Assembly (NCBI GenBank): GCA_019359045.1
Contig: JAHHIA010000001.1
Location: forward strand, 682,001 to 746,000
Direction of reading: 5' to 3'
DNA from: Scytolyngbya sp. HA4215-MV1
GTDB taxonomy: Bacteria > Cyanobacteriota > Cyanobacteriia > Leptolyngbyales > Leptolyngbyaceae
Length of the DNA stretch: 64,000 bases
In this document: positions 51,479 to 55,431 of the stretch, one piece after another
Layout of the letters: each line of letters starts with the position of its first letter
Position numbering within the stretch: the first letter of the stretch is position 1
Notes under the pieces: model-generated
What the model was told of the DNA's origin: nothing
Database searches by the model: none
The model's input: the letters and a program-made list of their open reading frames with translations, nothing else
Translations under genes and position numbers: made by a program

Positions 51479-51610
51479 CGGAAGGAGGAGGAATCGTATA
51501 GCCTGCGGCATTCAAGAAACGCGTAGCGTCTCCGTTAGGAGAAACCTCGATAGCGTTACACTATCCTCTGGTCTTTCAAGCCAGTTGCCGTCCACACAGC
51601 CGCACCTTCC
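51479..51610 (-). tRNA. tRNA-like, class II, Ser(TGA) or Phe(GAA)
   Basis: Acceptor GGAAGGT/TCCTTCC, Ser-like D-arm, anticodon arm CTGG-CTTGAAAGA-CCAG (a 9-nt loop, or 7-nt TTGAAAG with one mismatch), long variable arm GATAG..CTATC. 47-nt repeat in the T-loop (51497-51543). Most distal gene of the array. Confidence 0.55.
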
Positions 51611-51615
51611 ATCAG

Positions 51616-51744
51616 CGGAAACTGGAAGAATCGTCCGCGTAGCGTCTCTGTTAGGAGAAACCTCTACAGCATGAACTTGTACGCCTGTTTACCCTGCGGG
51701 AAGCAAGCTACGAGGCAGGTTGCTGACCTTCAGCCGTACCTTCC
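51616..51744 (-). tRNA. tRNA-like, class II, anticodon loop and T-loop interrupted
   Basis: Starts GGAAGGT like its neighbour. Anticodon stem CCTG/CAGG encloses a dispersed repeat (about 51690-51713), so no anticodon can be read; T-loop repeat at 51634-51659. Acceptor pairing is weak. Probably non-functional unless the insert is removed. Confidence 0.45.
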
Positions 51745-51750
51745 ATAAAG

Positions 51751-51827
51751 GGTGTCTAGCGGGACTCGAACCCTGCTAATGACTTGCTTCACAGGCAAGC
51801 GTCTCGACCACTTCGACTTTAGACACC
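51751..51827 (-). tRNA. tRNA-His(GTG)
   Basis: Loop CTGTGAA, stem CTTGC/GCAAG. Encodes G-1 opposite C73, the histidine identity pair (GTGTCTA/TAGACAC acceptor). The T-stem has one extra base. No CCA. Confidence 0.85.
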
Positions 51828-51832
51828 ATAGG

Positions 51833-51997
51833 TGGATCTGATCGGAATCGAACCGATTGCCTCCCGATGAGAATTGCACTCATCCCTCGTACAAGTTTAC
51901 AAAGCTGTTTTTGCTTCTTAACAGGAAGTTAGTATGTAAGCTTTGCCTGTTAGGGTACAAGGTGGTTTAGGCGCTCTGCCACTAAAGCTACAGACCC
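51833..51997 (-). tRNA. tRNA-like with 66-bp insertion in the anticodon region
   Basis: Acceptor GGGTCTG/CAGATCC, normal D-arm and T-arm (TCGGTTCGATTCCGA), long variable arm. The anticodon region is split by 66 bp flanked by the direct repeat GTACAAG (51889-51895 and 51955-51961), as a target duplication would look. Anticodon not readable. Confidence 0.5.
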
Positions 51998-52002
51998 AGG
52001 TT

Positions 52003-52104
52003 TGGTGGATTCTGGTCGGATTTGTTCGCGTAAGCGTTGCCGAAGGCAATACCGACATCTTTCTGCTTGCAAGGCAGACGCTTTCCCAGTTAAGCTACAG
52101 ACCC
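52003..52104 (-). tRNA. tRNA-Ala(TGC), T-loop insert
   Basis: Loop CTTGCAA on stem TCTGC/GCAGA. 26-nt repeat at 52025-52050 in the T-loop. Acceptor has one extra base on the 3' side; CCA encoded. Confidence 0.75.
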
Positions 52105-52107
52105 ATA

Positions 52108-52184
52108 TGGCAGGAGTGGTAGGAATTGAACCTACACCAGCCGATTTAGAAGATCGGTGCTCTGTTCAATTGAGCTACACTCCC
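52108..52184 (-). tRNA. tRNA-Arg(TCT)
   Basis: Loop CTTCTAA on CCGAT/ATCGG, canonical T-loop TTCAATT, G73 and CCA encoded. Uninterrupted. Confidence 0.92.
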
Positions 52185-52189
52185 ACAAT

Positions 52190-52288
52190 TGGTAGTTCTG
52201 GCAGGATTTGTTCGCGTAGCGTCTCCGAAGGAGATACCCGCAACCCTCTGTTTGTAAGACAGATGCTCCACCGTTGAGCTACAGGACT
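52190..52288 (-). tRNA. tRNA-Val(TAC), T-loop insert
   Basis: Loop CTTACAA on TCTGT/ACAGA. 25-nt repeat at 52211-52235. A73 and CCA encoded; one acceptor mismatch. Confidence 0.78.
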
Positions 52289-52293
52289 ACGAG

Positions 52294-52414
52294 AGCGATC
52301 GATGGGACTCGTTCGCGTCAGCGTTCCCGAAGGGTACCCATGCGCTGAGTGTGACGCATTTGTCGCAAAGCGACACGCTTCGCGAACAGATGCTCGCCGC
52401 TACATCACGATCGC
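52294..52414 (-). tRNA. tRNA-like, doubly interrupted
   Basis: Perfect acceptor GCGATCG/CGATCGC and D-arm. One repeat near the anticodon arm (about 52357-52388) hides the anticodon; another in the T-loop (52312-52335). A CAC (Val) or GTC reading is possible but not supported. Confidence 0.5.
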
Positions 52415-52417
52415 GTT

Positions 52418-52491
52418 TGGTATGGACAGTGGGACTCGAACCCACACCAAGAGGTTGGAAGCCTCACATGCTACCGCTACACCATGTCCAC
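52418..52491 (-). tRNA. tRNA-Gly(TCC)
   Basis: Loop CTTCCAA, stem TGAGG/CCTCT, T-loop TTCGAGT, A73, CCA encoded. Acceptor GTGGACA/TGTCCAT. Confidence 0.92.
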
Positions 52492-52495
52492 ATTC

Positions 52496-52570
52496 TGGGG
52501 CTGGTGACAGGAGTTGAACCTGCAACCGACTGTTTACAAGACAGTTGCTCTGCCGTTGAGCCACACCAGC
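52496..52570 (-). tRNA. tRNA-Thr(TGT)
   Basis: Loop CTTGTAA on ACTGT/ACAGT, perfect acceptor GCTGGTG/CACCAGC, CCA encoded. Confidence 0.92.
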
Positions 52571-52575
52571 ACATC

Positions 52576-52650
52576 TGGATCAGACGATGGGGATTGAACC
52601 CATATCGGGAGCGTACCAGGCCCCTGTGTTGCCAGTTACACCACGTCTGC
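52576..52650 (-). tRNA. tRNA-Thr(GGT)
   Basis: Loop CTGGTAC on GGGGC/GCTCC, T-loop TTCAATC, T73, CCA encoded. First acceptor pair is G1.A72. Confidence 0.88.
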
Positions 52651-52653
52651 ATT

Positions 52654-54229: not shown

Positions 54230-54329
54230 TGGCGAGAACGGAAGGAATTGAACCTTCACTCTACGGCTGCGCCGCGCTACACGAATGGTTTCGTAGACCG
54301 ATGTGTTCGTCCAGTTACACCACGTTCTC
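54230..54329 (-). tRNA. tRNA-Arg(ACG) with variable-loop insert
   Basis: Loop CTACGAA; A34 would be edited to inosine. A 24-nt repeat with GCGGCGCAGCC (about 54262-54285) lies in the variable region. Perfect acceptor GAGAACG/CGTTCTC, G73, CCA. Confidence 0.8.
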
Positions 54330-54334
54330 AGAGG

Positions 54335-54461
54335 CGGATAGCAGTGGACTCGTTCGCGAAGCGTCTCCGCAGGAGTTACCACAATTGTTTATCCATCTGT
54401 TTAGCAAACAGCGCCGTTAGCGAAGCTCAACGAAGTTGCTTGCCTGATCGATTTACTCTCC
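54335..54461 (-). tRNA. tRNA-Ser(GCT), D-loop and T-loop inserts
   Basis: Loop TTGCTAA on CTGT/ACAG. Repeats in the D-loop (about 54414-54442) and T-loop (54353-54377). Serine-type acceptor GGAGAGT with one mismatch, G73. Confidence 0.7.
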
Positions 54462-54483
54462 ATAACGTTGTTAATCAAACCGT

Positions 54484-54557
54484 TGGTAGGTCGGGCAGGA
54501 GCCGCACCTGCAACGCAAGAAGCGGCGGTTTTACAGACCGTTGCCCAGAGCCGACTC
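54484..54557 (-). tRNA. tRNA-Tyr(GTA), reduced D-arm
   Basis: Loop CTGTAAA on ACGGT/ACCGC, variable arm CGC..GCG as in bacterial Tyr. Only about 9 nt stand between acceptor and anticodon stems, so the D-arm is nearly absent; the T-loop is TGCGGCT. A73, CCA. Confidence 0.72.
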
Positions 54558-54567
54558 ATGTTGAATT

Positions 54568-54665
54568 TGGCAGTGCAGACGGGACTTGTAGCTTGCTTCC
54601 GCGAAGCGGTACCCGTTAATCACACGCTTGAAAGACGTGCCGCTCGACCACTTCGCTTCTACACC
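54568..54665 (-). tRNA. tRNA-Glu(TTC), T-loop insert
   Basis: Loop CTTTCAA on CACGT/GCGTG, acceptor GGTGTAG/CTGCACT, G73, CCA. 22-nt repeat at 54589-54610. Confidence 0.78.
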
Positions 54666-54693
54666 ATCAATGCCGTGCAAGTTGAAAAAGCTG

Positions 54694-54793
54694 TTGTTCA
54701 CACACAGGATTTGAACCTGCAATGGACTGTTTATGAGACAGTTGCCTTACCATTAGGCGAGTATGTAAGCTTTTCCGATTAGGGCACGACAAC
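54694..54793 (-). tRNA. tRNA-Met(CAT)-like, 5' region interrupted
   Basis: Loop CTCATAA on ACTGT/ACAGT, canonical T-arm. A repeat (54761-54787, beginning GTATGTAAGC) lies between acceptor and D-arm; a related sequence occurs inside the insert at 51935. The acceptor cannot be paired convincingly, so the ends are approximate. Confidence 0.6.
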
Positions 54794-54863
54794 GCACAGA
54801 CGAGGATTTGAACCTCGAACAACGGTTTTGGAGACCGCGATGTTGCCGTTACACCATCTGTGC
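54793..54863 (-). tRNA. tRNA-Trp(CCA)
   Basis: Loop CTCCAAA on GCGGT/ACCGT, perfect acceptor GCACAGA/TCTGTGC, G73. No CCA. Confidence 0.92.
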
Positions 54864-54865
54864 AT

Positions 54866-54961
54866 TGGTCGCAGCGGCGGGAGTCGTAGCTTGCTTCCGC
54901 GAAGCGGTACCCGCAATGACCAAGTTATGAGCTTGGGGCTTTGCCATTAAGCTATGCTGCA
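54866..54961 (-). tRNA. t RNA-Met(CAT), T-loop insert
   Basis: Loop CTCATAA on CCAAG/CTTGG. 22-nt repeat at 54887-54908, A73, CCA. Initiator, elongator and lysidine-Ile(CAT) cannot be told apart. Confidence 0.75.
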
Positions 54962-54966
54962 ATGAT

Positions 54967-55088
54967 TGGACTCCAGGGTGGGAATCGTTCGCGAAGTATT
55001 GCCGAAGGCATTACCCACGAATAGTCGGTTTTGCAGACCAACGCCTAAGCCTTCGGCAGGCTTTGCCAACCCACTTGGCGACCTGGAG
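54967..55088 (-). tRNA. tRNA-Cys(GCA), D-loop and T-loop inserts
   Basis: Loop CTGCAAA on TTGGT/ACCGA, perfect acceptor CTCCAGG/CCTGGAG, U73 as expected for Cys, CCA. Repeats at about 55043-55067 (D-loop) and 54988-55012 (T-loop). Confidence 0.75.
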
Positions 55089-55094
55089 ATTTAG

Positions 55095-55173
55095 TGGAGA
55101 TGTGGGGAATTGAACCCCAATCCTGCAACCGTCCGTTTGTTGGTTTCGGAGCAGGTGATGCCAATCCACCCCC
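55095..55173 (-). tRNA. tRNA-like, identity unclear
   Basis: Acceptor GGGGGTG/CATCTCC and perfect T-arm TGGGG-TTCAATT-CCCCA, A73. CCTGC/GCAGG may be the anticodon stem with a 24-nt loop, or CAAC/GTTG a class II variable arm. No anticodon assigned. Confidence 0.5.
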
Positions 55174-55178
55174 ACGAG

Positions 55179-55273
55179 CGAGGATGACAGGATTTGTAGC
55201 TTGCTTCCGCGAAGCGGTACCTGTGACCACTTGCCTCGGAAGCAAGCACTCTGTCCATCTGAGTTACACCCTC
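55179..55273 (-). tRNA. tRNA-Arg(CCG), T-loop insert
   Basis: Loop TTCCGAG on CTTGC/GCAAG, acceptor GAGGGTG/CATCCTC, G73. 22-nt repeat at 55197-55218. No CCA. Confidence 0.78.
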
Positions 55274-55275
55274 AT

Positions 55276-55352
55276 TGGGAGCATCGACGGGAGTTGCACC
55301 CGCTTCTCTGTGTTTGAGAGGCACAGCGACTTCTCTAGTCGTCCACGAGGCT
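55276..55352 (-). tRNA. tRNA-like with 9-nt anticodon loop
   Basis: Stem CTGTG/CACAG encloses CCTCTCAAA (9 nt). Acceptor AGCCTCG/CGATGCT with one mismatch, D-arm GAC/GTC, T-loop TGCAACT, C73, CCA. CTC (Glu) or CAA (Leu) would depend on how the loop folds. Confidence 0.6.
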
Positions 55353-55355
55353 ACA

Positions 55356-55431
55356 CGGGGATGATGGGATTTGAACCCACGATCTTTCGCTCGACAGGCG
55401 ACTGCTTTGAGCCGGACTAAGCTACACCCCC
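55356..55431 (-). tRNA. tRNA-Asp(GTC)
   Basis: Loop CTGTCGA on TCGC/GCGA, acceptor GGGGGTG/CATCCCC, T-loop TTCAAAT, G73. No CCA. First gene of the array. Confidence 0.92.

Follow-up and report, generated by a model that had tools for sequence, protein, structure and literature searches.

Short hairpin elements recurrently interrupt tRNA T-loops in cyanobacterial tRNA arrays at a WTCR target sequence

The 64,000-nt stretch of DNA analysed here (the window; positions 682,001 to 746,000 of contig JAHHIA010000001.1 of Scytolyngbya sp. HA4215-MV1) is part of contig C23 of a 6.6-Mb cyanobacterial genome and contains an array of about 39 tRNA genes (Table 1). An earlier note on this DNA had described 13 of these genes as carrying inserts of 22 to 47 nt between T54 and C56 of the T-loop. 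All 13 were located on the minus strand between 51497 and 55218, and residues C56-R57-A58 and both T-stem strands are indeed intact in each of them. Beside these, about 26 T-loops are uninterrupted (25 itemised by coordinate). At least 8 further inserts of similar type, which had been missed, lie beyond the T-loops in D-arms, anticodon loops and nearby, some of them splitting anticodons. The host genome holds two paralogous arrays, one on contig C14 (134.2-137.5k) with four clear T-loop inserts and one decayed one, and one on contig C30 (18.3-22.5k) with two. About 42 tRNA genes outside the arrays are of ordinary length and none is interrupted, giving about 20 filled T-loops in arrays versus 0/42 elsewhere (P = 0.001; array totals are approximate). 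Homologous arrays were found on plasmids of Nostoc, Calothrix, Tolypothrix and Kovacikia by a plasmid search, and six more by genome searches.

A survey of other cyanobacterial arrays for empty and filled sites, as had been proposed, found both. The comparison set comprised 24 arrays (the window, C14, C30 and 21 from other cyanobacteria); every uninterrupted TTC-type array tRNA was aligned to all of them, and insertions of at least 12 nt were counted, their position not being presupposed. Of 94 insertions, 69 sit in a T-loop, and filled T-loops occur in 18 of the 24 arrays; independent insertion events number at most 69. The flanks of the inserts are mostly 85 to 100% identical to those of empty orthologues. 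A filled site reads T54-insert-C56 where the empty orthologue reads T54-T55-C56, so that the position given in the earlier note stands, with the correction that T55 is overwritten. C56-R57 is retained in 67/69 T-loop inserts. With empty orthologues in C14, C30 and the 21 other arrays and 69 inserts at the same place, this uniformity goes beyond random decay, as had been argued.

The T-loop inserts always lie in one orientation, and 66/69 are 20 to 27 nt long (20 nt in 15), the remaining three being nested or composite. Their first base is A in 59 cases and T in 10, and their last base is A in 69/69. Among 45 distinct T-loop inserts, 41 share a hairpin build, consisting of A or T, a 3- to 5-bp stem with a 3- to 4-nt loop (often TTC), a variable second module and a final A; the stem pairs vary in a compensatory manner (CG, GC or TA). 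Insertion is recurrent: the T-loops of Val-TAC, Leu-TAG, Pro-GGG, Ser-GCT and Ala-TGC each hold elements that differ from array to array. The window array also holds four identical 22-mers, and some inserts are common to several arrays. Excision scars, in the form of TAC or 6-nt T-loops, were absent among 496 well-paired 7-nt T-loops.

The target of these elements is the sequence W-T-C-R, in which the middle T is overwritten (W-T-C becomes W-(A/T...A)-C) with the element in a fixed orientation. It is the sequence and not the T-loop as such, because these elements are also found at (T/A)TC(R) elsewhere: in anticodon loops, in D-loops, on the opposite strand, in their own hairpin loops as nested copies, and in non-tRNA DNA. 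Seven different non-T-loop targets were resolved base by base, and 7/7 are W-T-C. These are the antisense of the tRNA-Phe anticodon GAA and of the tRNA-Ser CGA; the tRNA-Pro anticodon loop, the tRNA-Cys D-loop and GCGATCG in the tRNA-Ser D-arm; the TTC loop of an older element copy; and one more site. Most non-T-loop insertions follow this rule, often on the opposite strand. Nested copies in element loops were seen in the window (54049-54096), in Nostoc PCC 7524 (3107) and in Stenomitos (L111); at the tRNA-Phe anticodon site, G006 carries the outer copy alone, without the nested inner one. With one rule governing anticodon, D-loop, antisense, nested and non-tRNA sites alike, strict T-loop specificity was rejected. 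The suggestion that a very small mobile repeat targets the conserved GGTTC fared well as to mobility (filled/empty pairs, recurrence and nesting) and was too narrow as to GGTTC: the target established is W-T-C-R, the GG is dispensable and a T-loop location is not required. The T-loop position recurs because nearly every ordinary tRNA presents T54-T55-C56-R57. We also sampled one element variant across public genomes, which gave 67 distinct contexts among the matches listed. Upstream, these have T at -2 in 47 and A at -1 in 63; downstream, A at +1 in 65, C at +2 in 62 and a purine at +3 in 65.

The arrays supply a natural negative control. T-loops reading TGC are filled in 0/42 cases versus 69/639 for TTC (P = 0.0097), and in a TGC-type tRNA-Glu the D-loop was hit and the T-loop is empty. 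Within tRNA genes, TTCR is filled about twofold more in the T-loop than at other sites (69 versus at most 25; P = 0.0007). In the host genome the tested cores are confined to the three arrays, bar one copy at C28:28874; the description of the repeat as dispersed did not hold, and genome-wide dispersal in the host was rejected. Among the matches listed in a contig scan, the records are cyanobacterial with two exceptions (L210 and L211), which lack the flank rule. Six element-like sites were found in 400 kb sampled from a second cyanobacterial genome, a second variant pattern searched in 12 genomes gave two matches, and the core also occurs on one viral contig with unrelated flanks.

Taken together, these data suggest, with a probability of roughly 0.85, that the inserts are copies of a 20- to 27-nt non-coding hairpin mobile element of the small dispersed repeat (SDR) kind with a WT^CR target. 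The element would be moved in trans by a host or foreign enzyme; insertions would persist since array tRNAs are presumably redundant to the non-array tRNA genes, and interrupted copies may be tolerated as pseudogenes in the making. The roughly twofold T-loop excess might arise from a preference for hairpin loops or from weaker purging there. Neutral build-up in redundant genes is the simplest reading. Several points weigh against this account. A few of the 94 insertions break the W-T-C rule, and a class with C at -2 in the 67 listed contexts, mostly one repeat context, departs from it. Few tRNA species stand behind the 0/42 of the TGC control. The T-loop excess could reflect a target or loop preference, and selection or weaker purging fits equally. 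The count of 69 overstates independent events, because some inserts are shared by descent. A mobility protein was not found in this analysis and insertion events were not witnessed; to our knowledge, loss of T55 on insertion is also unusual among known transposition chemistries.

The T-loop excess also fits an alternative in which TTCR alone is not enough and a hairpin loop is needed, insertion being guided by the structure of folded tRNA or cruciform DNA. Outside T-loops, many of the sites hit are anticodon or D-loops; nested copies are found in the loop of the element itself, and with L040 and L050 the loop belongs to a non-tRNA palindrome. However, TGC T-loops present the same hairpin without TTC and are never filled. 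Stems of at least 4 occur in 42% of the rule-abiding contexts among the matches listed, versus 15% of controls, but this excess comes mainly from tRNA T-arms; no clear hairpin-loop enrichment was seen among the non-tRNA sites listed, and a hairpin-loop requirement beyond tRNAs is unsupported by these contexts. We regard the alternative as possible though doubtful. That TTC is recognised within a folded hairpin loop (tRNA T-loop RNA, or cruciform or single-stranded DNA) and its middle T swapped for a hairpin of about 22 nt is unlikely; such structure-guided, single-nucleotide-replacing insertion, if true, would be a chemistry undescribed for any mobile element. A further alternative dispenses with transposition and lets the repeats spread between T-loops through gene conversion or homologous recombination, the tRNA genes and arrays being nearly identical. 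In its favour are the four identical 22-mers, the inserts common to arrays and the likeness of T-arms to one another. It is very unlikely, given that tRNA-specific flanks match the orthologous empty tRNA at 85 to 100% identity up to the very edge of the insert, and that unrelated TTC contexts on either strand and the element itself are also hit.

Finally, the second option of the earlier note, T-loop extensions that are tolerated or removed, was weighed in a fuller form: working tRNAs would put up with the extra sequence or lose it from the precursor in the manner of introns, and selection for the only harmless site would keep the position constant. The stems of filled tRNAs are nearly intact (T-stem of 4 to 5 pairs in 68/69; acceptor-stem pairs 6.51 in filled versus 6.64 in empty tRNAs, P = 0.06), and folding gave partial cloverleaves for some interrupted tRNAs. 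Stems nearly as good as those of empty tRNAs also fit fairly recent insertion, and strong pairing joins the Arg-CCG insert to the anticodon arm of its tRNA. Splicing is an unlikely explanation: after exact removal T54 would adjoin C56, with T55 missing; the T55 position is replaced in 69/69, and excision would not restore a canonical tRNA. Moreover, the same elements divide the anticodon in Pro, Ser and Phe tRNAs and also insert into non-tRNA DNA, non-array tRNAs are never filled, and TGC T-loops stay empty despite a D-loop hit. The proposal thus found no positive support, and we consider it highly improbable.

Table 1. The tRNA array of the window, its inserts and the adjoining gene remnant (window coordinates)
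Feature	Position	Strand	Remark
tRNA array, ~39 tRNA genes, bears inserts	51479..55432	-	
T-loop insert, tRNA-Arg(CCG), 22 nt	55197..55218	-	empty orthologue in C30
T-loop insert, tRNA-Cys, 25 nt	54988..55012	-	
T-loop insert, tRNA-Met, 22 nt	54887..54908	-	
T-loop insert, tRNA-Glu(TTC), 22 nt	54589..54610	-	
T-loop insert, tRNA-Ser(GCT), 25 nt	54353..54377	-	same site in C30, G183 and G006 holds other elements
T-loop insert, tRNA-Leu(TAG), 22 nt	53531..53552	-	
T-loop insert, tRNA-Pro(GGG), 23 nt	53038..53060	-	
T-loop insert, tRNA with anticodon near TAT/CAT, 22 nt	52675..52696	-	
T-loop insert, tRNA-Val(CAC)-like, 24 nt	52312..52335	-	
T-loop insert, tRNA-Val(TAC), 25 nt	52211..52235	-	
T-loop insert, tRNA-Ala(TGC), 26 nt	52025..52050	-	
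T-loop insert, tRNA-Ser(CGA), 26 nt	51634..51659	-	
T-loop insert, tRNA-Ser(GGA), 47 nt, composite	51497..51543	-	
D-loop insert of the same kind, tRNA-Cys, antisense TTC target	55047..55069	+	
D-arm insert, tRNA-Ser(GCT), ATCG-type target, common to other arrays	54417..54440	-	G145 copy solved
Insert near variable region, tRNA-Arg(ACG), antisense	54262..54286	+	
Nested element pair, antisense TTC of tRNA-Phe anticodon	54049..54096	+	inner copy in TTC loop of outer
Anticodon-loop insert, tRNA-Pro(GGG)	53083..53105	-	C30 site empty
D-arm-region insertion, tRNA-Pro(GGG), other type	53124..53160	-	
Insert between D-arm and anticodon arm, tRNA-Val(CAC)-like	52361..52386	+	
Anticodon-loop insert, tRNA-Ser(CGA), antisense TTC target	51691..51710	+	
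HNH endonuclease gene remnant, 18 codons, array-linked	55813..55866	-	

Other features recur around the arrays. A conserved HNH endonuclease gene (~179 aa, PF14279/PF01844) lies directly upstream of nearly all homologous arrays and is intact in L018 (8365-8862, minus strand), in L019 (1769-2305) and at most other array loci; the window retains a remnant, and no such gene was found near the C14 array. The window and C14 are fuller than C30, where the gene is intact, but arrays in G006, G183 and Nos7524 bear the gene and are well filled, and we draw no conclusion on its loss as a cause of filling. On the array plasmid of Nostoc HK-01 (L022, 1749-2306) the HNH gene exceeds its homologues by seven codons; it includes GCGATGCCTGCGGCGGGCTACGCCAACG, which resembles an in-frame SDR-like insertion following GCGAT. 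T-loop-like hairpins with G55 (TGCRA) occur at 55298 and 51878 of the window and in array tRNA-Glu(CTC), Tyr and others in most arrays. Conservation of these hairpins extends from Nostoc to Leptolyngbya-like genomes; they have been kept although they lack U55, and the insert is never found in them. A second recurring structure surrounds some array tRNAs, with GTGCCCTnATCnGAAAAGCTTACATACT on the 5' side and the complementary AACAGCTTTTTCAACTTGCAC on the 3' side and with apparent compensatory changes; it was found at 54665-54790 and 51885-51962 of the window, in L017, L018 and most other arrays, and gave no match in a comparison with Rfam.

Redundant arrays of this kind amount to a natural insertion assay, each offering about 40 near-identical target loops for which orthologous arrays give the empty sites. 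The assay yields a base-resolved rule (WT^CR, middle T overwritten) together with the TGC T-loops as its negative control. It also carries a warning for annotation: ARAGORN and similar tRNA finders miss or mis-call the interrupted genes, and apparent T-loop introns in these arrays are very probably mobile-element scars.

Among known systems, archaeal tRNA introns can occupy non-canonical T-loop positions and are excised at bulge-helix-bulge motifs, restoring the canonical loop. The extra sequence in the T-loop is alike, but here T55 is lost, and we know of no archaeal-type bulge-helix-bulge excision enzyme in bacteria. Rickettsial palindromic elements (RPEs) are likewise palindromic insertions inside genes, but are not tied to TTC and are far longer than the elements described here. 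REP/REPIN sequences with their RAYT transposases are also small non-coding hairpins, probably moved in trans, and the antisense of CTA-ending elements starts with GTAG if the target G is counted. However, elements ending in GAA and CAA lack the REP/RAYT tag (GTAG or CGTC at the hairpin foot), and the single Y1_Tnp match in the genome (C17:122626) has no element motif within 1.5 kb; a REP/RAYT identity was rejected on both grounds. PMC3733652 reports that REP and RPE insertions recurrently target the genes for the tRNA pseudouridine synthase B subunit, a curious parallel to the U55 lost in the present case. The inserts share with SDRs the unit length, the compensatory hairpin and filled/empty sites with nesting, and among the matches listed they are restricted to cyanobacteria. 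SDRs of 21 to 27 nt were reportedly described in Nostoc and relatives by Elhai et al. in 2008. The likeness, by description and not by sequence, extends to size, a hairpin kept across unrelated sequences, cyanobacterial range, nesting and precise insertion. One family, SDR5, is described in a passage of PMC4390886 as inserting precisely inside the HIP1 motif GCGATCGC. This motif also contains a WTCR site (ATCG). The elements here target WT^CR, chiefly in the tRNA T-loop. Full-text literature searches returned no report of T-loop insertions in cyanobacteria, and we know of no published T-loop insertion. What appears to be new here is the repeated use of the tRNA T-loop as a target, a rule resolved to single bases and the replacement of a T.

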